A stretch of 64,000 nucleotides of DNA from a virus, in IMG/VR virus record IMGVR_UViG_3300020452_000548, positions 16,545 through 80,544 of that record. One strand, given 5' to 3'. Both the position numbers and the translations under genes were made by a program. The notes under the pieces were generated by a model, which was not told the DNA's origin, searched no databases, and was given only the letters and a program-made list of their open reading frames with translations. Below are positions 30,087 to 64,000 of the stretch, piece by piece. The stretch's first letter is position 1; each line of letters starts with the position of its first letter.

Positions 30087-30301
30087 TGTTATCTGGTCGA
30101 GCAAGAGCTAAAGCATATCAAGATAAGATTAGTCAAGACTGTCCTGAATGCAATCAACGGGTTTTAGCTATTCGAATAAACGGGTTCTATGCAGGGTCAA
30201 GAGATAGGATATTCCTGTGGGAATGCCCTATATGCGAGTCCGTTTGGAAGAAAACTCGGCCTAAAGTCCATGTATCATTGTCCGATGTGGGTCAAGCATG
30301 A
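30086..30301 (+). CDS. Small zinc-ribbon protein
   Basis: The 71-residue protein has CPEC near residue 19 and CPIC near residue 48, a treble-clef or ribbon pair around a hydrophobic strand (IFLWECPICESVW). It overlaps both neighbours by stop-start fusion (TGATG, ATGA). It is one of the few Cys-knuckle proteins on the plus strand. Function unknown. Confidence 0.55.
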   Translation: MLSGRARAKAYQDKISQDCPECNQRVLAIRINGFYAGSRDRIFLWECPICESVWKKTRPKVHVSLSDVGQA

Positions 30302-30825
30302 GCGATGCCTTTGACCAAGCTTGGGGTGTAGCAAAGGCATATCCCCTACTTTGGCCGAAAGAATTAGACAATGACCCCGATTTTGGTGATTTCTTCAATA
30401 CCAGTGAGCCAAGTGCCTTCACCGTAATTCCTACTCAGCAAGGTCGTAGTAAAGGAAAAGGAGCTGCAAGCTTTGTTCGTTTGCCTAATCTATGGAGGGG
30501 AACATCAAGGAGAAGGAGAAATGAAAGCCCAGACGATAAAGAGCTGAGGCTTATTCACGATTATTTGGAATCTGATGTGCATGAAGATGTTCATGTTGCT
30601 ATGGATAATATCGGAGAAACATCAGATGTTCCGCTTCATAATGAAATCCCTGCTACTATCGGCCAAGCACTACAATTTCAAAGAAGGCCAAGACACTTAG
30701 ATCCTCATGACAAAACATGGGAGAATATTGATGCAGGGGTATCACCTACTAAGACAGCCGTTGATACTGCTTTTGGGCTTGCACCTCATCATCATCAAGC
30801 AAAAAGGGGGAATTACAAATGGTAA
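30298..30825 (+). CDS. Protein with F-x-x-A-W-x-x-x-K N-terminal motif, unknown body
   Basis: The 175-residue protein begins MSDAFDQAWGVAKAYP, one of at least six plus-strand products with this motif. The rest is Pro/Arg/His rich (RGTSRRRRNESPDD ... HHHQAKRGNYKW), with no recognised domain. ATGA overlap with the preceding zinc-ribbon gene and 7-base overlap with the following methyltransferase-like gene imply one transcript. The low-complexity basic body fits a packaged internal protein, but that is inference. Confidence 0.6.
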   Translation: MSDAFDQAWGVAKAYPLLWPKELDNDPDFGDFFNTSEPSAFTVIPTQQGRSKGKGAASFVRLPNLWRGTSRRRRNESPDDKELRLIHDYLESDVHEDVHVAMDNIGETSDVPLHNEIPATIGQALQFQRRPRHLDPHDKTWENIDAGVSPTKTAVDTAFGLAPHHHQAKRGNYKW

Positions 30826-32360
30826 CTGACCCTTTTGACGAAGCTTGGGATGTAGCTAAGGGCAAGTTCCGAGGATATTCTCGAAACAATATTAGCGATA
30901 GAGATAGCAAGGCAAGCAAAGCCCGTGCATGGAGTCAATCACGCAAGAATAAGCGTAAAAGAACCAGTAGAAGGTATAATCGTAATAAAACAAGAGGTAA
31001 TGTGCGACCTAAGATGAGAAGGCAATTAGGGGCAGGTGGCTCAAGAGAGCAGGTGGCTAAAGCAGTAAATATTCCTGATTTGTCGAGTTTGAATCTTGGT
31101 AATATGTATGCAGGTCTTGGTGGTTCTGAGCTTACACAATATCGGCCTTTAGGCTTGGGTGGCTTCATGGGGGCAGGTAAGCAAAGAGGACACAATGTCC
31201 AGTCTTTTGACTGGGGGATGCGTGAAGATGGCATTACTGATGCCGAGCTAAAACAGAATGATCCCAACTATCACTATGACGATATTACTGAAGGTTCGGT
31301 TTCTGCATTAGCAGATAGGGTTCTTGATCGGTTTGATGGGGATTACATACACGGTCTAACTGCCGGAACACCATGCAAGGCATTCAGTATGGGTGGAGAG
31401 AATGTAGGTTGGAAATTAGAAGAGGATTCTATTCAAAGATTATGGGATAAACTCTATCCCGGTCAAGATTATCCAGAAGTTACAAGAGATATGAGAAGGA
31501 CATTCACACCTGAAGCTTTGGCGTGGAGTAGGGGTAGCATCCATAGCCCCAAAAGCATCAAAGGATACTTGAATAGCATAAGAGGTCAAGAAGGCGGTTG
31601 GGGTATGCCCACCTTTGTTCCTCGTAGTATTGATGAGATAATGTTCGATTCATTTGGTGAGCCAAGAATTAGGCACGGCAAGGAAATGACCGAGAGTGCA
31701 GCTGAAAGGATTCGTGGTAATACGCAGACTGGTGTTGATATGCTAGAGAGAACGGTTGCCCTGTATGATGAATTAAAGAGAAGAGGAAAATTGGGTTATG
31801 GATTCATTGAAAACCCAATGGGTAAAATGCGATATATGAATCAAATATCTCATTTGCCTCTCCATGCAATATCGGCCGCATCGTATAGAGAACCCGCACA
31901 TTCAAGATTATTCGGCCTACCGCCTGAACCCGATGAGTTTGATATGGGAGCTTACATGAGGCATACAAGACCGAATATGGATATTTCTGGTTTGCCACCT
32001 TTGAAGATGACTGATTTATTTGGCGATTTGCCCCCGCAAATGACATTACGGCCTTCATTGAAAACAATGAATGTGGCGGGTGATTTGTATGCTCATGGGC
32101 CGAGAGGAAGTATAGATGAATCAATACAGGGGATGAAGGGATTACCTGCTAACACATTGTTCGCAGGTTCTCCAAAAATAGATCCGTATCATGTTCGCTC
32201 AATTGCACCATTCCAATTGGGCAAGGATTTTGTTCAAGCTCTTGAGTCGGATTATGAGATACCTGCACCTATCCCTCAATATAGAAAACAATTAGACCAG
32301 AATAGAGCATTACGGGAATTAGCTGATGCTGCTCGAAACAAGACCCTGTTTGATTATTGA
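30819..32360 (+). CDS. Cytosine-5 DNA methyltransferase-like protein with shared N-terminal motif
   Basis: The 513-residue protein begins MVTDPFDEAWDVAKGKF (shared motif), then a ~55-residue Arg/Lys-rich stretch (KNKRKRTSRRYNRNKTRG). The body has the C5-methyltransferase order: motif I at ~93-102 (LGNMYAGLGG), motif IV at 183-190 (GTPCKAFS, candidate catalytic Cys186) and motif VI as GYGFIENPMG near 320, with ENP in place of the usual ENV. No QRRRR motif VIII was spotted, so activity is uncertain. RBS GGGGG lies ~10 bases upstream. It closes the structural operon and its end overlaps the convergent exonuclease-like gene by 7 bases, whereas the standard Dcm-type enzyme is on the other strand. 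Confidence 0.6.
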   Translation: MVTDPFDEAWDVAKGKFRGYSRNNISDRDSKASKARAWSQSRKNKRKRTSRRYNRNKTRGNVRPKMRRQLGAGGSREQVAKAVNIPDLSSLNLGNMYAGLGGSELTQYRPLGLGGFMGAGKQRGHNVQSFDWGMREDGITDAELKQNDPNYHYDDITEGSVSALADRVLDRFDGDYIHGLTAGTPCKAFSMGGENVGWKLEEDSIQRLWDKLYPGQDYPEVTRDMRRTFTPEALAWSRGSIHSPKSIKGYLNSIRGQEGGWGMPTFVPRSIDEIMFDSFGEPRIRHGKEMTESAAERIRGNTQTGVDMLERTVALYDELKRRGKLGYGFIENPMGKMRYMNQISHLPLHAISAASYREPAHSRLFGLPPEPDEFDMGAYMRHTRPNMDISGLPPLKMTDLFGDLPPQMTLRPSLKTMNVAGDLYAHGPRGSIDESIQGMKGLPANTLFAGSPKIDPYHVRSIAPFQLGKDFVQALESDYEIPAPIPQYRKQLDQNRALRELADAARNKTLFDY

Positions 32361-34569: not shown

Positions 34570-35277
34570 TCAAGACCGAGCCATTCTGACCCTTTCGCTC
34601 GCCATTTTCGTTTCGCTATTTAGAACCTCAGAAATACGGGTTGCTCGAATCTTACCTAAACCTACAATCTCCGTCAGCTCTTTGACTGATACTGAGCTAA
34701 TCTCAGCTACAGACCCAAACTTCTCAAGGAGCTTGTGAGCTATGGCTTCGCTTGCCCCCGCAGCTCGTAGTGTATCCACCCTCATATCCTCAGAAGTGGT
34801 TTTTCTTAGAACACGATATGTGGATGATGAACCAAGCGTTCCATCCTTCTCAAATCTTTTACAGATGAATCGAGCTGCCGATGATCTATCGGGCAGGGTG
34901 ATGATTTGTATGTCGTAGTCCGTGCAATACCTTGCTAAAGAGCCGACATAGCTTGACCATGCCTGTTGGTATCTGATTTTCCTACCACTCTTCATGACTT
35001 GAGTAAGATACTGGTCAAGAGTACCCCATACCAATAGTATTGCATTGTTGTAGTTATCATCCAGATTGTTGAGCTGTTGCTCAAGATGCCCACTCATCAT
35101 GCTACCCATGTAGTCATGAATGCTCTTTGCTTCTATGCCTACGCTGTTGAATGCGTAGTCAGCAATCATGTTCTGCTTAGTCTTGTGATGCAGACCATCT
35201 TTCTTGTCAATATACTTCTTCACTAAGTCCTCTAATCCAGATCGCTCTCTATTATCAATAAACAATACTTTTGTCAT
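34570..35277 (-). CDS. ERCC4/XPF-family nuclease with helix-hairpin-helix
   Basis: Start set at ATG 35277 (MTKVLFIDNRERSGLED), whose ATGA overlaps the previous stop; the frame is open further upstream but inside the neighbour. The 235 residues carry FIDNRE (metal-binding D-x-R-E), NMIADYAF and GIEAKSIHDYMGSM, which corresponds to the ERKxxxD motif with the first R replaced by A. A tandem helix-hairpin-helix region follows (LRAAGASEAIAHKLLEKFG; LTEIVGLGKIRATRISEVL). Family members (XPF, Mus81, Hef) cut branched DNA; here it likely resolves replication or recombination intermediates. Confidence 0.75.
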   Translation of the reverse strand: MTKVLFIDNRERSGLEDLVKKYIDKKDGLHHKTKQNMIADYAFNSVGIEAKSIHDYMGSMMSGHLEQQLNNLDDNYNNAILLVWGTLDQYLTQVMKSGRKIRYQQAWSSYVGSLARYCTDYDIQIITLPDRSSAARFICKRFEKDGTLGSSSTYRVLRKTTSEDMRVDTLRAAGASEAIAHKLLEKFGSVAEISSVSVKELTEIVGLGKIRATRISEVLNSETKMASERVRMARS

Positions 35278-36035
35278 ACGCTCGCCCCTATTCTTTCCGC
35301 CCAGCTCAATGCAAAATTGATACAATTCCTACAACTTGACGCACAGTCTGGTAATTTGACACACTTTGATTCGTCTTTTCTTGCTCGAAAAGACCAAGCC
35401 ATAGAATCAGCAGATGCGATATATTCCTTTGACTTGACCAATCCTAACTTCTTCACACCAAATGCGTGAAGCTTCAGATTGTATTTGCCTGTTGAAAATG
35501 TCTTGAGGATATGTGAAATCTCATCGGTGTTTTGCCTTCTACATACAGAACCTATACCCACCAATGGTTCGTCTTGAAGATTCACGCCATGTTCAACATA
35601 TAGCTCAAAGCAATCTTGATACTCATTCATCTCAAAACCCTGCAAAACGGGAATAATAGGTAAATCAGGTGCAAGGCTTTTCAGCTTGAGATAATTATCA
35701 ACAGTAAGCTTTTGATGTTCCTTTACCGATAGCCCTGTTTTTTCAATCATGTGCGGTTCGCACATCCAGTCTTGAGGTGCAATAAAATCAAAGCTCAAAC
35801 CTATATCACTCATCAAACGCCTAATTCCAGCCACATATTCTTGAGGCGTTACAGTCCATTCGCCATACTTTTCCAATTCGGTGAAGCCACCGGAATCTAA
35901 GGCCAATGGTGCTTTCTGCTCAATTTTCTTCTTTCTGTTTTTGAGCCACCTGTAAGATACCATCAACGGGTGATTCGTTCTTTCAATATGTTTCAACTGC
36001 CATGTTCCAATATAAAACTCATTCAAGATTGACAC
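35274..36035 (-). CDS. TGT/DpdA-like DNA 7-deazaguanine transglycosylase candidate
   Basis: The 253-residue protein starts at GTG 36035, overlapping a tiny zinc-ribbon ORF. It has DSGGF at 47-51, FDFIAPQDWM at 82-91 (D89 a candidate nucleophile), IPVLQGF at 128-134, GIGSVCRR at 160-167, LHAFGVK at 189-195 and ADSMAWSFRAR at 209-219. Four cysteines follow (225, 231, 235, 238) and could bind zinc. This is the motif series of tRNA-guanine transglycosylase relatives. Short viral DpdA proteins of this kind swap guanine in DNA for preQ0-type bases. No preQ0 synthesis genes are visible here, so a host archaeosine pathway would have to supply the base. It lies between nuclease and primase genes rather than any tRNA gene. 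Confidence 0.6.
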   Translation of the reverse strand: MSILNEFYIGTWQLKHIERTNHPLMVSYRWLKNRKKKIEQKAPLALDSGGFTELEKYGEWTVTPQEYVAGIRRLMSDIGLSFDFIAPQDWMCEPHMIEKTGLSVKEHQKLTVDNYLKLKSLAPDLPIIPVLQGFEMNEYQDCFELYVEHGVNLQDEPLVGIGSVCRRQNTDEISHILKTFSTGKYNLKLHAFGVKKLGLVKSKEYIASADSMAWSFRARKDESKCVKLPDCASSCRNCINFALSWAERIGASV

Positions 36036-43360: not shown

Positions 43361-44830
43361 TCACCAATAATCAGACAGTCTAATCTGCCCCAATCTAAAT
43401 CCACTTGCGATAGATGCGACTCTATTTGGAATTAAAGCTGCAAACTCTTCATTCAATTCGCAGATAACTGCATTTCTATTGTGTAGTATTGCGACACCTG
43501 CTGTTGTTCCCGAACCCCCAAACGGATCCAAAACAACTGAAGAAATGACTGGATGTTCATCAAGAGGCATATCGCTCTTGTATATCTGCATAATCTTGAT
43601 TCTATCTTTTGTTTTGTTTTCTATGATTCTCTTCTTTACATCACTTGCAGGTTGAGCCATTGAAGATTCGTAATCCTTCTGATTATCTCCAAAGTACTCT
43701 CCCTTTGTAGTAACGCCCCATGTCGTTTTAGCCACCTGTGCAGGTGTCATCTCAGCAGGGATTACTACTTCTTCCATCACTAACTCACCAAAGCATTCAC
43801 AACTTGGTTGCCAATCATTTCCTATTCTTGTATATGGTGAGCCACATTCGCCACAGCAACCGTGAGCTGATGTTGAAGCTAACACGCATGGTTCAATCAG
43901 CTCTGGTGGAAATACTGCGAAGTGTGCGCCTTTGTATGGCTTGGTAGTAACAGTCCATACTGAACGCTTGTTTCTACCACTACCATTTGATACCCATTCA
44001 TCACCACCAATCCCACCAGATACTGCTTGATGGTCTGCACCACCCTGCCTACTTCTGAAGCTATTGCCTGAACGACCACCACCATCTCTTTCTTTGATTG
44101 CTACATGATCGTAGTAATACTTCTTGTTCTTAGTGAGTAGGAATATGTATTCATGGGATTTAGTAGGTCTATCTTTAACACTCTCAGGCATGGGATTAGG
44201 CTTATTCCAAATAACATCTGAACGCAGATACCAACCATCAGCTCGTAATGCGAAAGCAAGCATCCAAGGTATTCCAATCAAGTCTTTTGGCTTGATTTCA
44301 TCGTGAGTCCTATCTGTTGGCCTTGTCTTGCCCTTACCGCCTGTTGCATTATGATGAGCTTTGTTCAGACTGTCTGTTCTCGCAGCTTGGACTTCTGCAT
44401 CTTTCATACCGCTACGACCTTTACCGCCCCAGTATGAATCACCTATGTTCAGCCATAAGCTACCTGTTGGCTTCAGCTTCTTTCTTACCAGTCTAAACAC
44501 TTCGACCAAGTTTTCTATGAATTGCTCAGGCGTATCTTCCAAACCTATTTGCTCATCAATCCGTGTAGCACCGCATTTTAGACAGGCGTTTGATTTACCG
44601 CCTCTATGAGCCACTTCGGGTCTGAGAACATTCTTACCCCTCTTAGGATCATTCCATTTGGTATCCATAGATACTGTATGCTCGCAGTTAGGGTCGCCCC
44701 CTTCCCATTCAGCCGTTCCGTAATCTCGAAGGCCGTAATATGGCGGAGATGTTATGCAAGTATCAATGGACTCATCCTCTAATTCATGTAATGAATCGAG
44801 GCAGTTACCTAATAGCAACCTGTAGCTCAC
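43361..44830 (-). CDS. N4-cytosine/N6-adenine DNA methyltransferase
   Basis: GTG 44830 overlaps the previous stop (GTGA). The 489-residue protein is of the beta-class layout: motif IV SPPYYGLRDYG near residue 28, LKPTGSLWLNIGDSYWG in the middle, and SAM-binding VVLDPFGGSGTTAGVA near the C-terminus. A CxxC pair (CLKCGAT) and another zinc-like group (CCGECGSPY, then CEC) are inserted. Methylates a specific DNA sequence. Overlaps with the next methyltransferase, suggesting co-expression. No restriction endonuclease partner is adjacent, so self-protection is the likely use. Confidence 0.8.
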   Translation of the reverse strand: MSYRLLLGNCLDSLHELEDESIDTCITSPPYYGLRDYGTAEWEGGDPNCEHTVSMDTKWNDPKRGKNVLRPEVAHRGGKSNACLKCGATRIDEQIGLEDTPEQFIENLVEVFRLVRKKLKPTGSLWLNIGDSYWGGKGRSGMKDAEVQAARTDSLNKAHHNATGGKGKTRPTDRTHDEIKPKDLIGIPWMLAFALRADGWYLRSDVIWNKPNPMPESVKDRPTKSHEYIFLLTKNKKYYYDHVAIKERDGGGRSGNSFRSRQGGADHQAVSGGIGGDEWVSNGSGRNKRSVWTVTTKPYKGAHFAVFPPELIEPCVLASTSAHGCCGECGSPYTRIGNDWQPSCECFGELVMEEVVIPAEMTPAQVAKTTWGVTTKGEYFGDNQKDYESSMAQPASDVKKRIIENKTKDRIKIMQIYKSDMPLDEHPVISSVVLDPFGGSGTTAGVAILHNRNAVICELNEEFAALIPNRVASIASGFRLGQIRLSDYW

Positions 44831-46368
44831 TCAGACCCCCCTAAGAAATCAAGAAGCGATGGTTGTTTGATTCTCTTCATAGTCAAATCCTCAGTTATTT
44901 CGTATTCACCCGAATGAGCTATCCTTGCCCGTGCGATTTTCACATAATTCTCATCCATCTCTATACCAATGAAGCTGAATCCTTCCAAGTTTGCAGCTAT
45001 CCCGGTTGTCCCACTACCCATGAATGGGTCAAGTGTGATGCCGTTTGGTGGTGTAACAAGCCTACACAAATATCTCATCAAATCTACTGGTTTGACTGTG
45101 GGGTGGGTATTCTTTCTCAGAATGCCCCCTCTATTACGAGGATTGTTAGCTCCATCCTTTGATGTATCTTCTCTATCACTAACATTCTGAGCTTCAAAAT
45201 TATCCAACCCTGCTTCTTTCTCTTTACCCGATGGTTTGGCGCAATAGAAGAATCGAGATGCACCGCCTTCATCGCCAATCTGGAATGTATGTCTTTCTTG
45301 TTGAACGCCATAGGTATTGAATTGCCCGCCTTTAGCTATTGAATCCATATCTCCTGATTTCAAATGCCCGCTTTGCTCATCAAGAGCCTCGCCCGCTTCT
45401 TCATCAAGAATCACATTTGAGGGGAATCTACCTTGTTTTGGTTGATAGAAGAATCGAGATGCACCACCCAATCCGTCAAAGACACCGTTTGAATCACCTT
45501 CATTCTTTGATGAGGTACTCCATGAATTACCTGTTCCGCCTGATGTTGTTGTCTTTCTTGTAGCACTCATCATGTTGCCTACATTTGGTGCTTGCTCGTC
45601 AAGAATCTCGCCAGCTTCCTTATCCATAATTACATTCGCAGGGAAGCGACCTTTACCTATGTCTTGAACACCGAAATTGCCCCCATGTAATTTGTTTCTT
45701 TCTTTACCTGCATTTGAGCCATCAATTCGTGAAGTGCCACCTTCTGCACCAATTCGGCAACCATCAATGTTTATCCCACCAGTCCCATGCTCAAGCACAT
45801 TCTCAATTACTGTGCCGTCAATAGGCTTACGAGCTACTACAACAGGCTCATGAGCTGGTTTGAGAGCTGTCCCCCAACCTTCCCATTCTTTCGCTTTGGG
45901 TGATGTGGCTTTAGTAATATCATACTCGCCACCCATTTCACTTGAACCGCCTGTACTCATATTGTAAGATGTTAGATGTGTTTCTGGTGAGCCACTACGA
46001 CCTATCCCAATTACTTCTGATTCTACACCTTCGGCCTTGTCTATCGCCTTGCTGATGTTCAATGACTTTGGGAATCCGCTACCATAAATCCACATGATTT
46101 GATCACGAATCTCAAACCCCGCATCCTCGACATTGACAGCTAACCTATGATATGTCCTTGAACCTGCAAATGCGAGAAGATGACCTCCGGGCTTGAGAAC
46201 CCTAAGAGCTTCTTTCCAGATTTCAACTGAAGGCACATCATAATCCCATTGTTTGCCCATAAAGCTGAGTCCGTATGGTGGATCGGTCACAATTGAATCA
46301 ACCGAATTATCCGCCATTTCCCTCATCGCTACTAAACAATCATTACAAATTAACTGACTTGATACCAT
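44827..46368 (-). CDS. DNA methyltransferase, N4/N6 type, with internal repeats
   Basis: ATG 46368 follows AGGTGA. In 513 residues, motif IV is TDPPYGLSFMG (~32-42) with HLLAFAGSRTYHRL after it, and the SAM motif is LDPFMGSGTTGIAA near 460 followed by FIGIEMDE. Between them, a target-recognition region has two copies of GRFPxNVIxDxEAGExLDEQ, and RFFY segments (GGASRFFYQPKQ, GGASRFFYCAKP). Such RFPANVI elements occur in many phage adenine methyltransferases. Second enzyme of a three-gene methyltransferase cluster. Confidence 0.8.
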   Translation of the reverse strand: MVSSQLICNDCLVAMREMADNSVDSIVTDPPYGLSFMGKQWDYDVPSVEIWKEALRVLKPGGHLLAFAGSRTYHRLAVNVEDAGFEIRDQIMWIYGSGFPKSLNISKAIDKAEGVESEVIGIGRSGSPETHLTSYNMSTGGSSEMGGEYDITKATSPKAKEWEGWGTALKPAHEPVVVARKPIDGTVIENVLEHGTGGINIDGCRIGAEGGTSRIDGSNAGKERNKLHGGNFGVQDIGKGRFPANVIMDKEAGEILDEQAPNVGNMMSATRKTTTSGGTGNSWSTSSKNEGDSNGVFDGLGGASRFFYQPKQGRFPSNVILDEEAGEALDEQSGHLKSGDMDSIAKGGQFNTYGVQQERHTFQIGDEGGASRFFYCAKPSGKEKEAGLDNFEAQNVSDREDTSKDGANNPRNRGGILRKNTHPTVKPVDLMRYLCRLVTPPNGITLDPFMGSGTTGIAANLEGFSFIGIEMDENYVKIARARIAHSGEYEITEDLTMKRIKQPSLLDFLGGSE

Positions 46369-46379
46369 ACATTTTCACC

Positions 46380-48086
46380 TCAAAAGTCAAAGATAGATTT
46401 CTGCTCAACACGCACAGGCTCTTGTCTATCCTCAAGGCCATCCAAGATACCATCAACAGCTTCGATGCCCATAGCAATCCATCTCATGACTGGAACGGCC
46501 ATTGAATTGCCGAGAGCTTTGTATCTCACACCATCAGGGCATTCCTCAGCAGGTTTGCCCCGCCATGGTATCTGCGTGTAGTTATCTGGGAATCCCTGCA
46601 ATCTCTCACATTCAATAGGTGTTAAACGCCTAACTACATGATGTGCTTGCGTGGCCTTTGAAACAAGTGTTTCAGAACCACCGCCCTGCGCCCCACCGGA
46701 TGCCCTAACAGTACCCGCAACATCTGATTCCTTGTATTCTGTTTTCTTGCCGAACCCAGATGCAACTGCTGATTCATCTTCTGCAACCAATGGAACATTA
46801 CCTCTATCTGCATTTGCAGCTAATGTGGGAGCTACACCCTCAAGCTCATCGTGCCTTGAGGTCATGAAATGGTTATCGAAAAGCTTCCGTTCCTCAGTTT
46901 GGAATACTGAATGATTACCTGCCGTGTCTAATGTAGGGCATGGGTCGCCCTCTTTACCTATGCCAAGACCATTCTGAGCTTTGGTTCTCGTAGTCTTATC
47001 ATGAATCGGGATTGCCGATGTTTCTGATACCAATGGAAGGTTGTTGCCCCCTGTTCCAGCTCTTGCTGTGATAGTAGGGCTTACATCAACCTCAGATACT
47101 CTTGAGTCTGTTCCATGATTCTCATACACCTTCTGCGTTATACCCATGAAATTGCCCTTATCAGGCATGGTTTGGTCTATGGATCGTGTAGTCAAGGTGC
47201 TTGTCTTGTCTGTTCCATCCCAAAACTCACCGATTATCTGACGCTCAATACCTGCTCTCTCTCCTGTGCCTTTACCGTATGAGGCATCAAGAGTATTACT
47301 TACAGGGCCATGTAGTGGTTCTTGATTAGATGTAGCTACAGCTTGACCTTGACCGCCAGCTCGAAGTGTTGGGAATACATCTTCTGATGGTTGGGCATCC
47401 AATCCTTGAGTATGAGAAAAACCAATCATTCCTCTTCCGTCTGACTGTTTTGAGTCCTCTCTTTCAATGCCCTCTCCAATAAAGGAGGCAAGACTTTGCC
47501 CCGCCTCTTCGCCCGGCGGAGGATTCCCGAACAAGCTCTCTCGCTCAAATAATACCGAGAAGGGACTTCGCCAATCTCCTGAAGAATGTCCGACAACGAA
47601 GAGTCGCCTCCGTCTTTGGGGGACTCCGAAGTACTGAGAGTCCAAAACTCGGTAGGCGAACCCATACCCGCATTTTGCCACTTCCCCAAGGAAGGCCGCA
47701 AAATCCCTTCCTCCGTCAGACGACAGTAATCCGGGGACATTTTCAAAGATGAACCACGCTGGTTTAATTGCCTTAACAGCCCCAAGGAAGTGGAGAGCCA
47801 AGTTACCCCTTGGGTCATCCATTCCAAGTCGCTTACCCGCAACGGAGAAGGATTGGCATGGGCTTCCTCCGACAACGAGATCTGCTTTTCCTTCGTACTC
47901 ACTCCAATCCACCTTCGTTACATCGCCTCTATCAGGCACATCGGGGTAATGATGTGCAAGAACCTCTTTTGGAAACTTATCAAAGTCGCTGAATGCGACA
48001 GGCTTCCAACCAAGCTCATGCCAAGCAACCGTAGCTGCCTCAATACCACTAAACATACTGACATATCTAATCTCACTCTTCCTCAT
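46380..48086 (-). CDS. Cytosine-5 DNA methyltransferase (Dcm-like)
   Basis: The 568-residue protein has all main C5 motifs: I (VSMFSGIEAATVAW), IV (GGSPCQSFSVAG), VI (FIFENVPGLL), VIII (QRRRRLFVVG), and a C-terminal motif IX/X region (VRRLTPIECERLQGFPDNY ... YKALGNSMAVPV). Between VIII and IX is a long region with several PTL-containing units (PTLRAGGQGQ, PTITARAGTGG, PTLDTAGNHS, PTLAANADRG), probably variable target recognition. Start ATG overlaps the preceding EEE tail. Fully equipped, unlike the plus-strand C5-like gene. Confidence 0.85.
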   Translation of the reverse strand: MRKSEIRYVSMFSGIEAATVAWHELGWKPVAFSDFDKFPKEVLAHHYPDVPDRGDVTKVDWSEYEGKADLVVGGSPCQSFSVAGKRLGMDDPRGNLALHFLGAVKAIKPAWFIFENVPGLLSSDGGRDFAAFLGEVAKCGYGFAYRVLDSQYFGVPQRRRRLFVVGHSSGDWRSPFSVLFERESLFGNPPPGEEAGQSLASFIGEGIEREDSKQSDGRGMIGFSHTQGLDAQPSEDVFPTLRAGGQGQAVATSNQEPLHGPVSNTLDASYGKGTGERAGIERQIIGEFWDGTDKTSTLTTRSIDQTMPDKGNFMGITQKVYENHGTDSRVSEVDVSPTITARAGTGGNNLPLVSETSAIPIHDKTTRTKAQNGLGIGKEGDPCPTLDTAGNHSVFQTEERKLFDNHFMTSRHDELEGVAPTLAANADRGNVPLVAEDESAVASGFGKKTEYKESDVAGTVRASGGAQGGGSETLVSKATQAHHVVRRLTPIECERLQGFPDNYTQIPWRGKPAEECPDGVRYKALGNSMAVPVMRWIAMGIEAVDGILDGLEDRQEPVRVEQKSIFDF

Positions 48087-54219: not shown

Positions 54220-55824
54220 TTACATCATGCCCCCCGGCATACCGGGAGAATTGATGCCCATACTTAGAACATCGTCAATGCGAAGAATACTGATTGCAGC
54301 TTCGGTTGCAGATTTGATTGCATTTGATACAACCCTGCTTGGTTCAAGAACCTGTAGCTCAAGCATATCAGCAATACTCCCATCCATGCTGACACCAAAG
54401 ACTGGTGCAGATGATGTTGTTACTTGCTTTCTCAAATCAATCATAGCATCAACAGGATCAACACCTGCATTTTCAGATAATGTTCTAGGTATGTCCTCAA
54501 GAGCTGATGCAAACGAATCAATAGCCATCTGTTCACGACCACCCACACTATCAGCATGATTCTTCAATGAACGAGATAGATGTGCGTATGATGCACCGCC
54601 ACCCGCAAGATATTCTCCATCTTCGTAAGCTACAGATACCACACCAATACAATCCTCGAAAGCTCTCTCCAATTCCTCAGCAGTATGAGAGCTAACCCCT
54701 CTTAGAACGGCAGTAACAGGGCCTTTAGCGTCAGCAGACACATGAACACAATGATGCTCACCATACTGGAGAACCCGTGCTGAGCCTTCTCCTAAGTCCT
54801 CAACCTTAAGATCCTTCAATGAATTAACTAGATTAGCACCTGTTGTCTTTCTGACTAGCTCAAGGTCTGAAGGCGATACCCTCTCAACAGCTAAAATCCT
54901 CTCCCTTGATAGGAAGTGCTTAGCTAGGTCATCAATAGCTCCTTTGACTAATACAATAGAAGCACCAGATTTCTTGATTGTATCAACCATCTCTTTGAGA
55001 GCTTCTTCCTCTTTCTCTAAGAACGCTTGAAGAGAATCTGGGTCAGATATGGATAGCTGACTGTCTTGTTTCATTTCCTTTATCTCCATTTCAGAAGTTA
55101 AGCAAAGAACCGACCCTGCGATAGCTGGAGGCATCTGAGTATGTGCAGGGTCTTTCTCTATTAGACAACCCTCAAGTAGCTCAGAATCGCTAAATGAAGC
55201 ACCTGCAAAGGTTACTACCTTCACATCATCAAGATTGACTGATGTTTCATTTGCAGCCTTTCTAACGGCTTCAATAGCTAACTCAGCGACTAAATCAACC
55301 TCACTCTCAGCACTCTTACCAGTCAGCGAAGTCTTAGCTACAGGATCTAACATCAAGTCAATGTTAGTTTCATCGAAAGTACCTGCAAGATAATTCACCT
55401 GTTCTTTCAATTGGTCTAATGCTACCTTTGATGCTTCTCTAAAGCCCTTACAGATAGTAGTAGGGTGAATACCCTTGCTAATCAGAAGCTCAGCTTCTCT
55501 CAACAGACCACCTGCGATAATAACACTAGATGTTGTTCCATCGTATGCAGCTTCCTCTTGATTCTCAGCAACGCTAATCATCAGATTGCCCGCAGGGTGC
55601 TGACAGTCAATCTCTCTCAAGATAGTAGCACCATCATTTGTGATAATGACCTGCTTACCCTCTCCAGATACTAACATTTTGTCTGACCCAGAAGGGCCAA
55701 GTGTTGAACGAACAGCTTCAGCTACTGCCTTTGCTGCGGCAATATTGCTTCTTTGAGCTGACTTACCTGCGGTGCTTTCGATGTTGTTATTCAAGATGTA
55801 TATTGGTTGTTGATCCTGTGCCAT
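54220..55824 (-). CDS. Group II chaperonin (thermosome subunit)
   Basis: 534 residues, the family length. Motifs present: [37 protein letters not shown] (ATP site, DGTT kept, with Tyr where GDG has Gly), [25 protein letters not shown] and the C-terminal GMPGGMM tail typical of thermosomes. It would assemble into double-ring chaperonins that fold proteins with ATP. It has its own upstream TTAAG motif 31 bases before the start (55851-55860). Known in archaea and in some archaeal viruses; the best single marker that the host is archaeal. Possibly helps fold the giant tail proteins, which is inference. Confidence 0.9.
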
Positions 55825-60847: not shown

Positions 60848-60895
60848 AATATCACTCTCAGCCTCTCATAGAGGCACAACCTTTCGGGGGCTACC

Positions 60896-60904
60896 ACACT
60901 ATAT
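60896..60904 (-). promoter_or_regulatory. ATATAGTGT box, candidate early promoter
   Basis: On the minus strand TAGTATTGATATAGTGTGG is followed by TAGCCCCC, ~50 bases before ATG 60847. It matches the box before the winged-helix gene at 53680. A second ATTATAGTGG copy lies ~20 bases further upstream. Confidence 0.45.
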
Positions 60905-61209
60905 CAATACTACCACTATAATGTAGGTCTAATGCCTCTAAACGCACTATTCTGCGGTCATCAGCTCACGACAGATTTAGCTATGGTTCGGGGCTTCATC
61001 AGACACCTTCCCCACCATAGACACTACCCATAGGGGGTATAACATACATAGTATGTAATATACCTTGTATTGTATAGTATAATGTGTCTGTCTAAAGTGT
61101 CATTAGTGTCTTGTATTGCTCGCAGTAAGCCCTTTTGTTATAGGACACCTTAGACAACTTGTCTAACGACACCTCACCTTATACCACACACACTAGCGCC
61201 TTGGCTCGG

Positions 61210-61252
61210 CATTGGGTAATGGGGGGCGAAAAATGCGTTGCATTACCCAATG
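61210..61252 (+). repeat. 12-base inverted repeat CATTGGGTAATG / CATTACCCAATG
   Basis: Perfect 12-base arms separated by 19 bases in the gene-free region. A third copy of the second arm occurs at 61487-61498. Confidence 0.6.
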
Positions 61253-61420
61253 TGGGGCTGAGCAACGGTGCATTGGGGGGTGAATCGGGGTCGAGAGGGG
61301 GGTTCGCTGAGCCTATTGCCCAATGACTGGCCTATTGCAGGGCTGAGCTAGGCGGATCGGGCTGAAGCTGAGCCGAAAACAGGGCCAAAAGCCCGCAGAA
61401 CGGGCGAAACTGGGGGTGTG

Positions 61421-61439
61421 GCCGAGCCTTTAGCTCGGC
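61421..61439 (+). repeat. Perfect hairpin GCCGAGC / GCTCGGC
   Basis: 7-base arms with a 5-base loop. Neighbouring hairpin GCCCG-CAGAA-CGGGC at 61391-61405. Both lie in the GC-rich half of the gene-free region. Confidence 0.5.
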
Positions 61440-61578
61440 ATTCCCTAATGTGGGGGGTTAAGTCGCATTGAATGGGGGCTAAGCCCCATTACCCAATGCA
61501 ATACAACCCCCATTGACCAATGCAAGGCCATTGAATGGGGCTGAGCTGGGGGCTGAGCCATTGGCTTAGGCATCGAGA

Positions 61579-61609
61579 TTTTTTTTTTTTGGCGGGGCTA
61601 CGCCCCGCC
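61579..61609 (+). repeat. T12 tract followed by hairpin GGCGGGGC-TAC-GCCCCGCC
   Basis: The T-run precedes the 8-base hairpin on the plus strand, and the opposite strand has the hairpin followed by As. Neither order makes a classical intrinsic terminator. Might be an archaeal T-tract stop or part of the origin. Confidence 0.4.
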
Positions 61610-61735
61610 TAACCGCATACGCTCGGCGGAACAAAATACGGTTTTTTTCTGTCAATACTGACAGCTTCTGCCCTTTCAATGCCTATTTTTGCCCGCAGAA
61701 TGTTTTTTTGATGAATTGCTGTCGGGATTGACAGC

Positions 61736-61855
61736 ATGAGTGAGAAGTGGTATTTGGAACACATGGGGGTCATGGCTTTTTGGCGAACCGTGATCGGTTT
61801 GATGAACCTAACTCTCACAGGGATAGTAGCTCTCAAGATTTTTGGCGTGATTTGA
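61736..61855 (+). CDS. 39-residue small membrane protein
   Basis: ATG 61736 opens MSEKWYLEHMGVMAFWRTVI, followed by a hydrophobic segment (GLMNLTLTGIVALKIFGVI) predicted to cross the membrane once. It overlaps a CTGTC palindrome at its start. Function unknown. The longer alternative frame reading through to 62472 is not supported. Confidence 0.5.
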   Translation: MSEKWYLEHMGVMAFWRTVIGLMNLTLTGIVALKIFGVI

Positions 61856-61890: not shown

Positions 61891-62472
61891 ATGTCGGATA
61901 GCTTCGAGAGAGCTTGGCGTATCGTCAAAGCGTTGCCGGAACAGCAAGCAGTAAGCCGAAGAGGAGCTGAGAAGTTTATGTTCGCAGATTTAGCTGAAGG
62001 TTCTGGGCCATACATGGGTCATGGCTTTGAGTCTGAAGGCACTATTCACCCCGCAATCTTGGGTATGATGGCTCGAAGGGAGAAGGCTCGCCACGATGAG
62101 TCTGTTGAGAGGAACAGGTCTGAGCCTAATGAACAGCTAAGGCGGATACTCACAAAACCAAAATCAGTAGAGCAGATATTAGAAGATGGTGATATGGATA
62201 TGAATATAGAGGCTAACCGTGAATCTCAGAATCGTAGAGATTTTTCAAGCTGGAACAGGGGGCAAAGGTATAATGAAATGAAACCGACACCCCTTGAAGA
62301 ACAAGAACCGGGTAAATTGATGGGTCGCAACGAATATCCTGAGAGCTTTGATACGGGATGGGCAGACAAGGTTCATCCCGGTTCTGGTGAGTTTGATCGC
62401 CATGAGATGAGCGATGGGCAAAGTCCACATTGGATGAGCCATCGAACAAGTGAAGAAAAGGCTCGTCAATGA
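61891..62472 (+). CDS. F-x-x-A-W-x-x-x-K motif protein, unknown body
   Basis: Start set at ATG 61891 (MSDSFERAWRIVKALPEQ) with AAAAGGTGTAG upstream. The 193 residues continue with a charged, low-complexity body (MARREKARHDESVERNRSEP ... RRILTKPKSVEQIL) and end DGQSPHWMSHRTSEEKARQ. No domain recognised. Shares the N-terminal motif with five other plus-strand proteins. Confidence 0.6.
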   Translation: MSDSFERAWRIVKALPEQQAVSRRGAEKFMFADLAEGSGPYMGHGFESEGTIHPAILGMMARREKARHDESVERNRSEPNEQLRRILTKPKSVEQILEDGDMDMNIEANRESQNRRDFSSWNRGQRYNEMKPTPLEEQEPGKLMGRNEYPESFDTGWADKVHPGSGEFDRHEMSDGQSPHWMSHRTSEEKARQ

Positions 62473-62509: not shown

Positions 62510-63022
62510 ATGACGGCAGATGCGTTCTCAAAGGCTTGGATCTTGGCTAAAGGCGAAGAAAAGAGCATGGCCTATATGGATAAGGGCAAAAAGCGTGGTC
62601 TTTGGGATAATGTTCATGCTAAGAGGAAAAGAGGCGAGAAGGCAGCTAAACCCGGAGATAAGGACTACCCTGATAAGAAAAACTGGGATAAGCTGACTAA
62701 CAAGAGCTATGAGTGCGATTGTAATGCTTGCGTGACTATTCACAACATCTTGGAGAAGAAAGAGAAAGACGACAAACCATTTCACGGGTACAACCCTAAC
62801 AAGCACAGTCGCAAAGGTGGGCTGAATGCGAAGGGTCGTGCAAAGGCAAAGAAGGAAGAGGGTGCTAACCTCAAACCACCCGTTACCGAGAAGAATCCTA
62901 CCGGGAAGAGAAAAGCTCGAAAGAAATCATTCTGCGCTCGTATGGGTGGTGTCAAAGGGCCTACCAGTAAAGAAGGTAAGAAAACACCGAAAGGTGCAGC
63001 TCTTGACAGGTGGAATTGTTGA
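62510..63022 (+). CDS. DUF6321-like basic protein with shared N-terminal motif
   Basis: Start set at ATG 62510 (MTADAFSKAWILAKGEE). 170 residues, very basic. The C-terminus (SRKGGLNAKGRAKAKKEEG ... VTEKNPTGKRKARKKSFCAR ... MGGVKGP ... ALDRWNC) strongly matches a family I know as DUF6321, widespread in marine phages and of unknown function. A CxCxxC cluster (ECDCNAC) lies at ~70. Stop-start overlap with the next gene. Confidence 0.65.
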   Translation: MTADAFSKAWILAKGEEKSMAYMDKGKKRGLWDNVHAKRKRGEKAAKPGDKDYPDKKNWDKLTNKSYECDCNACVTIHNILEKKEKDDKPFHGYNPNKHSRKGGLNAKGRAKAKKEEGANLKPPVTEKNPTGKRKARKKSFCARMGGVKGPTSKEGKKTPKGAALDRWNC

Positions 63023-63681
63023 TGAGTGATGGGTGCTGTTGCGGGGCAACCAAGTCAAACCCCTGCGTCTGCATGAAGAAAGGCATCACTAAATGTTCCA
63101 AGTCAGAACCCAAGTGTCCTTGCTACGCAGAAAAAGACAAGAAATCATTTGAGAAGGCTTGGTCTGTTGTAAAGGAAGATAGCAGACCACCTACGCCTCT
63201 TGAAGCGATGCAATCAAGATACCTGCATTTTCCTAATGAGGTAATGAATTGTCGAAAACTTGCAGCGGAACATGGGGGAGAACCTTGTGTATTGTGTGGT
63301 GGTAATGGTGATTGGTGTTGGAATGCAGGTTTGAATGTCAATGAGGATGGTTCTTTGGATTATTCTATGATGCAAGGCTATGATGAGAAAGGCAGACCTT
63401 TGAAAAAGAGCGACTTTTTGGTGAAGATGCCTCGAACACTTGAGCATCTGAAGCTGTATGAATCAGGCAAATGCCCATCATGCGAGGGTACAGGTCAGCA
63501 ACTGGTGACGATTGGTTCAGGAGATACATCCCAGTCGCAAACATTTGAGGAAGCGAAAGAGATGGCGATGAGAGATGTAGAGTATATGATGATGGAATGT
63601 GCTGCTTGTGGCGGAACAGGCGTTCCAGATGATGAAATCTGGGGCGATGAAGGTATAATGGAATACGAGGATTACGAATAA
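63022..63681 (+). CDS. DnaJ-type zinc-finger protein with internal shared motif
   Basis: Start at ATG 63022 (MSDGCCCGATKS). In 219 residues, an N-terminal Cys cluster (CVCMKKGITKCSKSEPKCPC) is followed by KSFEKAWSVVKE, the shared motif moved inward. Three CxxCxGxG-type elements follow (CVLCGGNGDW, CPSCEGTGQQ, CAACGGTGVP), as in the DnaJ zinc domain. It ends in an acidic tail (DEGIMEYEDYE). No J-domain HPD is present. May bind unfolded protein or DNA. Confidence 0.6.
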   Translation: MSDGCCCGATKSNPCVCMKKGITKCSKSEPKCPCYAEKDKKSFEKAWSVVKEDSRPPTPLEAMQSRYLHFPNEVMNCRKLAAEHGGEPCVLCGGNGDWCWNAGLNVNEDGSLDYSMMQGYDEKGRPLKKSDFLVKMPRTLEHLKLYESGKCPSCEGTGQQLVTIGSGDTSQSQTFEEAKEMAMRDVEYMMMECAACGGTGVPDDEIWGDEGIMEYEDYE

Positions 63682-63730: not shown

Positions 63731-64000
63731 ATGATTGGCGGTGCGAGCTTTGAGAAGGCTTGGAAGATAGCAAAGGAATTGTCTTTGCATGAGAGAGCTG
63801 TAGCTGAAGAGTTTGCACACCCCGATGATATGGAAGGACACAGATTGAGAGATAAAGTGCCTTCGTGGATGAATCGTAGCAAGACGGGAGAGCTAAACCC
63901 AAAGGATTTGGATGAAATGAGGCAAACCGCTGCAACCAGTCCTTTCAGATTCTTTGATGACGATGAGATTTACGAGAGGATAATGGAAAACATGAGTGAG
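63731..64000 (+). CDS. F-x-x-A-W-x-x-x-K motif protein, 3' end outside window
   Basis: ATG 63731 opens MIGGASFEKAWKIAKELSLH. The 90 visible codons are charged and helical (HERAVAEEFAHPDD, NPKDLDEMRQTA) and the frame is open at the window edge. Preceded by the conserved TTAAG motif, so it likely heads a new transcript (perhaps the head/packaging module). Identity unknown. Confidence 0.6.
   Translation, partial: MIGGASFEKAWKIAKELSLHERAVAEEFAHPDDMEGHRLRDKVPSWMNRSKTGELNPKDLDEMRQTAATSPFRFFDDDEIYERIMENMSE

Follow-up and report, generated by a model that had tools for sequence, protein, structure and literature searches.

A short, probable docking tag on unrelated proteins of an archaeal virus

A short peptide, F-x-x-A-W-x-x-x-K, recurs on otherwise unrelated proteins of a virus linked to Candidatus Poseidoniales and of its relatives, and our best reading, to which we give a probability of roughly 0.7, is that it acts as an archaeal-virus analogue of the capsid-targeting sequence (CTS) of phage T4. 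The stretch analysed (the window) is 64,000 bases long and comprises bases 16545–80544 of an 80,544-base IMG/VR record, read on one strand. Six-frame translation of the window returned six copies of the motif, at the places named in an earlier sequence-only reading (Table 1), each on a plus-strand protein and none on a minus-strand protein, against a mean of 0.115 and a maximum of 2 in 400 residue shuffles of the same translation. Within the whole record, seven of the 72 called genes carry the motif in their first 70 residues (0.011 expected), the seventh copy lying outside the window at L003:10754. The cluster of tagged genes at 61.9–64 kb is the start of a longer array within which the window ends; in a near-identical strain this array extends to at least 13 tagged genes. 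Tagged gene 6 is a 152-aa stop-to-stop frame in such a strain (L084). Tagged gene 1 gave no Pfam or PHROG match and was assigned to no known family.

Table 1. Tagged genes of the window and the tag copies that they carry (window coordinates).
Feature	Position	Strand	Description
Tagged gene 1	30298..30825	+	175 aa, Pro/Arg-rich, tag FDQAWGVAK
Tag FDQAWGVAK	30310..30336	+	In tagged gene 1
Tagged gene 2	30819..32360	+	513 aa; tag, then basic module, then divergent cytosine-5 DNA methyltransferase-like domain
Tag FDEAWDVAK	30834..30860	+	In tagged gene 2
Tagged gene 3 (MSDSFERAWRIVK...)	61891..62472	+	Opens the tagged array
Tag FERAWRIVK	61903..61929	+	In tagged gene 3
Tagged gene 4 (MTADAFSKAWILAK...)	62510..63022	+	170 aa, C-terminal DUF6321
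Tag FSKAWILAK	62525..62551	+	In tagged gene 4
Tagged gene 5	63010..63681	+	223 aa: Cys-rich head, tag at about residue 47, zinc-ribbon-like body
Tag FEKAWSVVK	63148..63174	+	In tagged gene 5, internal position
Tagged gene 6	63731..64000	+	Incomplete at record end
Tag FEKAWKIAK	63749..63775	+	In tagged gene 6

Anatomy of the tag

The tag spans about 11 residues with the consensus [TSND]-[AP]-F-[DE]-x-A-W-x-[ILV]-[LV]-K, its information concentrated at F, [DE], A, W, the two aliphatic positions and K, where conservation ends. At position −2, 77% of N-terminal tags have one of S, T, D and N, as do 60% of other tags, against a background of 23%; such a residue at −2 together with D or E at +1 makes a helix capping box, and the tag is an N-capped amphipathic helix. 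AlphaFold2 modelled it as a helix in two proteins, one of the two models being poor overall: in the product of tagged gene 2 the helix covers residues 5–14 of a low-confidence model (pLDDT 40, the rest of this methyltransferase-like protein being unusable), and in an ADP-ribosyltransferase-like cargo protein the tag helix directly precedes the first strand. Variant spellings (M, L or I for F; S, G, T or V for A) numbered 504, against 10 for the reversed motif. Phenylalanine is encoded by TTT 226 times and by TTC 161 times, lysine by AAA 219 times and by AAG 168 times, and the alanine codons also vary; because synonymous codons vary, selection acts on the peptide.

The sequence-only reading had described an N-terminal leader. 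This description holds to the extent that the six window copies lie near N-termini, and fails in its strict form, as the motif of tagged gene 5 begins only well into the protein and relatives also carry it mid-protein and at the C-terminus. The high-scoring copies number 503: 420 close to a Met start, 77 elsewhere (some of these being N-terminal in frames with a non-ATG start) and six C-terminal. One 691-aa protein has four copies, and another, of 646 aa, has three copies ahead of two ADP-ribosyltransferase-like stretches (recognised by eye) and an HD domain. In L233/L234 the tag stands between an unassigned domain and a D12-type methyltransferase-like region (assigned by motif), and in L086 a front domain like that of L233/L234 precedes the tag and a GP88-like region (assigned partly by eye). 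The internal and C-terminal copies rule out a strict N-terminal leader, and because of them the tag is, as judged from sequence, a linear docking motif.

We also observed a conserved, disordered-looking protein (L244/L254, L230, L210 and L252) with one or two tags and repeated C-terminal SLLPxG motifs. Its gene, as seen in strain G011, is just upstream of the terminase gene, and the protein is a candidate for a core or scaffold-like partner.

Distribution of the tag

Loci were gathered through three routes: the capsid gene, a single cargo gene and a DNA pattern. A motif search across related viral contigs recovered at least 387 distinct tagged sequences, and in non-overlapping open frames the true motif matched 405 times and the reversed motif once. 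Twenty-six of the 31 records searched whole carry the pattern, with up to 18 copies per record (control matches, 2). In records with a known capsid gene, 138 of the 141 copies tallied share the strand of that gene, and the tagged genes are for the most part found in the head module or upstream of it. The 374 tagged bodies among the matches listed fell into 197 unrelated clusters, 141 of them singletons, which bears out the claim that the bodies behind the shared motif are unrelated and excludes the outcome in which the motif would be part of one homologous full-length domain; with conservation ending at K, it refutes a common domain. For tagged genes the median number of other loci with a homologue was 2, versus 17 for untagged genes, the latter figure being inflated by capsid-gene-centred sampling.

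A strict MTAF version of the motif gave zero matches across 84,980 prokaryote genomes, and the two motif matches in a 1.2-Mb Poseidoniales single-cell assembly are both on its virus contig, with none elsewhere in the assembly; together these results rule out a host-derived motif. No tag was present in the related halovirus HCTV-1 or in vir519, a virus of Methanofastidiosa, although both have the capsid gene, a point against our main reading.

The virus and its host

Among the products encoded by the record are a UvrD-type helicase, a thermosome, the major capsid protein and a prohead protease of family S78. Its structural genes occupy the plus strand and those of replication type the minus strand. 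The S78 gene is just upstream of the major capsid gene, so that a prohead protease is indeed nearby, as the earlier reading had suggested checking. The capsid protein is 33–34% identical to those of Druskaviridae haloviruses and 83% identical to that on a 106-kb virus contig (L256) of the single-cell assembly AG-422-I20 (Candidatus Poseidoniales); the presence of this contig inside the assembly is a direct host link. From the overlap with the near-identical strain G011, about 28 kb are absent from the record and the full genome would be about 108 kb, the size reported for clade A, Apasviridae (PMC12999244). The Druskaviridae-related capsid, the link to Poseidoniales, the opposed structural and replication modules and a size of about 90–110 kb (the size being inferred) match a magrovirus type, and by these features, rather than by comparison with a named magrovirus, we class the virus as a magrovirus-type (Magrovirales) tailed virus of Poseidoniales.

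Several other features of the genome were recorded. The minus strand carries a gene for DpdA (DeoxyPurine in DNA protein A; window 35274–36035, Pfam E 1e-71), which suggests 7-deazaguanine-type DNA modification in this Poseidoniales virus, and a group II chaperonin (thermosome) gene (54220–55824, Pfam E 1e-141). Also on the minus strand, at 43361–48086, are three adjoining DNA methyltransferase genes, two of N6/N4 type and one of cytosine-5 type, which are untagged, in contrast to the tagged methyltransferase-like gene at 30819. The roughly 900 bases between the opposed modules (60848–61746) hold no confident gene and no tandem repeat that we could find, and are possibly a divergent control region. 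Searches of the window for Rfam families and tRNAs returned none. A 1137-aa head-region protein without a family (L003:2399-5812) contains a stretch that by eye resembles the nucleotidyltransferase core of DNA/RNA ligases; at a similar place halovirus HCTV-1 has a zeta-toxin-domain protein.

Exchange of a portal tail for the tag

The portal of the window's virus has a C-terminal tail domain (LFKRDVTDPVHGS...). Such fused tails were found in 29 distinct sequences among relatives, and not one of them is tagged. Other genomes have a portal that goes no further than the same linker and encode the tail next to it in a gene of its own, which usually overlaps; other tagged genes are often inserted between the two. 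All 18 separate tails are tagged: 14 begin at once with the motif (one with V for A), those of L041 and L042 have an N-terminal motif and then an insertion before the tail, and those of L039 and L150 have a tag with K changed to E. The virus of the Poseidoniales single-cell assembly brings this to 19 of 19; two other untagged matches that seemed to be separate were left out, being portal fragments at record ends. On a portal tree there were at least two independent switches between the fused and separate states, the tag arriving with each, and with only about two such events the comparison carries limited weight.

Portals generally have their C-terminus directed towards the head interior. That the same domain is portal-fused in one virus and tagged in another is a classical indication that the tag brings its bearer to one shared location, the head, and the tag appears, as far as gene arrangement can tell, to replace physical attachment to the head. 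We regard this exchange, in which fused tails are untagged and separate tails tagged, as the best functional evidence for the tag among these genome comparisons, and it supports the earlier suggestion of a targeting or docking signal like that of T4.

The junction of fused portals lacks F..AW and in most portals keeps [ILMF][FLMWI]K-R, and a conserved LLKAD stands close to the N-terminus of the capsid protein. The lysine end of the tag is a suspected protease site because its [ILV][LV]K resembles this capsid LLKAD and the FKR at the fused portal junction. When seven head-region proteins and two others were aligned, LLK and VIK sites looked suggestive but no clear conservation pattern emerged.

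Cargo of the tag

A model built from an alignment of nine tagged proteins that share YHGT...GLKP had as its eighteen best PDB matches only Tpt1/KptA-type proteins (best E 0.011, probability 1.00; one of the eighteen is listed as APE0204 only), and on these matches this cargo appears to be Tpt1-like, within the ADP-ribosyltransferase superfamily. A Foldseek comparison of the ADP-ribosyltransferase-like structural model with viral structures gave mixed weak matches, Tpt1 and DarT names among them. The HD domain of the 646-aa protein matches a (p)ppApp hydrolase and RelA (2e-10). Other tagged proteins matched NUDIX, GNAT, D12 methyltransferase, SLOG, Lar-like zinc ribbon and GP88 families, some of them weakly, and inspection by eye alone suggested HExxH metallopeptidase-like and kinase-like motifs. 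Most of the cargo had no Pfam or PHROGs match and no recognised function. Many of the tagged proteins are probably host-attacking enzymes.

Tagged gene 2 is modular, a basic module (KGKFRGYSRN...RGNVRPKMRRQLGAGG) preceding the methyltransferase-like domain. In L159 and L238 the basic module occurs as small tagged proteins, and L240 has an untagged homologue of the methyltransferase-like domain. Over L159, L238, L087, L194, L223 and the window (30819) the module either stands by itself, with or without a tag, or is joined to the methyltransferase-like domain.

A proposed mechanism and its alternatives

As a working mechanism we propose that a short docking helix sends its bearer into the assembling head by binding the scaffold/protease core or the portal, F-x-x-A-W probably making the contact. 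Tagged proteins would be made from the late strand alongside structural proteins, be loaded into the procapsid and probably be delivered with the DNA at the next infection, and the closing residues of the tag, [ILV][LV]K, may also be where the S78 prohead protease cuts. The types of cargo (ADP-ribosyltransferase-like, acetyltransferase-like, alarmone-hydrolase-like, DNA-methyltransferase and zinc proteins) would fit host takeover and protection of the incoming DNA. Packaging of the tagged proteins into the head is the part that we hold probable; their co-injection is favoured somewhat less strongly, and cleavage at the tag lysine is a tentative suggestion. Rather doubtful is the boldest extension, in which, throughout the archaeal tailed-virus lineage, a position-independent docking helix would be a universal cargo code for some 20 effectors per genome, the prohead protease would cut multi-tag polyprotein-like chains at each tag, and each virion would inject a configurable arsenal of ADP-ribosyltransferases, alarmone hydrolases, acetyltransferases and methyltransferases into Poseidoniales.

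The most serious competitor, in our judgement unlikely, places the docking site on a complex for assembly or replication late in infection, inside the host cell and involving a portal-associated or host factor; the proteins would act there and never enter the virion. What the evidence so far supports is co-location with the portal, and part of the cargo, chiefly small zinc proteins, might work in the cell that produces the virus; against this, the portal tail belongs to a virion protein, and the repertoire and variability of the cargo, with the homologue medians of 2 versus 17 loci given above, match injected internal proteins. A destination in the tail or neck rather than the head interior is less probable still: two of the window's tagged genes do come after the giant genes of the tail/fibre region, but most tagged genes are placed upstream of or within the head module and the domain exchanged for the tag is part of the portal.

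Two explanations do without a docking peptide. In the first, the shared start would be a nucleic-acid signal, for translation initiation or as a recombination site for gene capture. In its favour, codon sharing is slightly higher within a locus (0.54) than between loci (0.46), so that tags may spread by local recombination, but the F, A and K codons vary freely, the DNA upstream of the tags has just a Shine-Dalgarno-like purine stretch, and the motif also occurs mid-protein and C-terminally. The varying codons and the upstream DNA led us to rule out a DNA or RNA leader, and we consider any signal of this kind very improbable. Hardly credible at all is the idea that the tagged proteins are diverged members of one family with a conserved N-terminal domain. 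Tandem duplication could build tag arrays, yet conservation stops at the lysine, the 197 body clusters are unrelated, named unrelated folds come directly after the tag, and untagged homologues of the cargo exist.

Comparison with known packaging signals

The internal proteins of T4 have only a CTS in common (PMC3012670), and one packaged T4 protein, Alt, is an ADP-ribosyltransferase (PMC9026906). Like the CTS of IPI, IPII, IPIII and Alt (PMC3012670, PMC9026906), the tag is a very short sequence on diverse, non-conserved proteins, an ADP-ribosyltransferase is among its apparent cargo and the genome encodes a prohead protease. In T4, residues 4 and 7 serve targeting and residues 8 and 10 processing, and we propose a similar division between F..AW and the lysine. 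Unlike the CTS, the tag is also internal and C-terminal, and it marks up to 18 genes per genome, compared with a handful in T4, in viruses of archaea. We draw the likeness at the level of proposed function. We have not filed the tag as a T4-type CTS because its position is not strictly N-terminal and the likeness is not based on sequence; that it would work as in T4 or P1 is argued by analogy.

In phage P1, 30 residues of DarB direct a reporter to the capsid and the N-terminal signal is required (PMC9024508). There too an N-terminal signal loads an antirestriction protein into the head, and the tagged DNA methyltransferases recall the antirestriction role of Dar; the Dar proteins have no common consensus by BLAST (PMC9024508), whereas the tag has a sharp one. 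Propeptides of the internal head proteins of SPN3US and phiKZ-type phages (PMC10052503) are likewise N-terminal stretches, and their removal by the prohead protease was shown experimentally. Unlike the tag they are mostly long (20–254 residues) and have no common short targeting motif. Encapsulin cargo-loading peptides, usually C-terminal, are short linear peptides that load unrelated enzymes into an HK97-fold shell; they differ from the tag in sequence and serve a non-viral compartment, and we claim no membership for the tag.

Implications

We found no description of the motif in the searchable open-access literature and, if our reading is right, this would be to our knowledge the first capsid-targeting code recognised in archaeal viruses, one larger in scale than that of T4. 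These viruses are known from metagenomes only, and a single regular expression would then identify the virion-borne effector set of viruses that infect archaea ranking among the most abundant in the surface ocean, yielding hundreds of candidate host-takeover and counter-defence proteins. As a short peptide, the tag could also serve to load foreign proteins into HK97-fold heads, and the portal-tail exchange would illustrate an evolutionary route to arsenals of internal proteins, by which a domain is split off the portal and given a tag.
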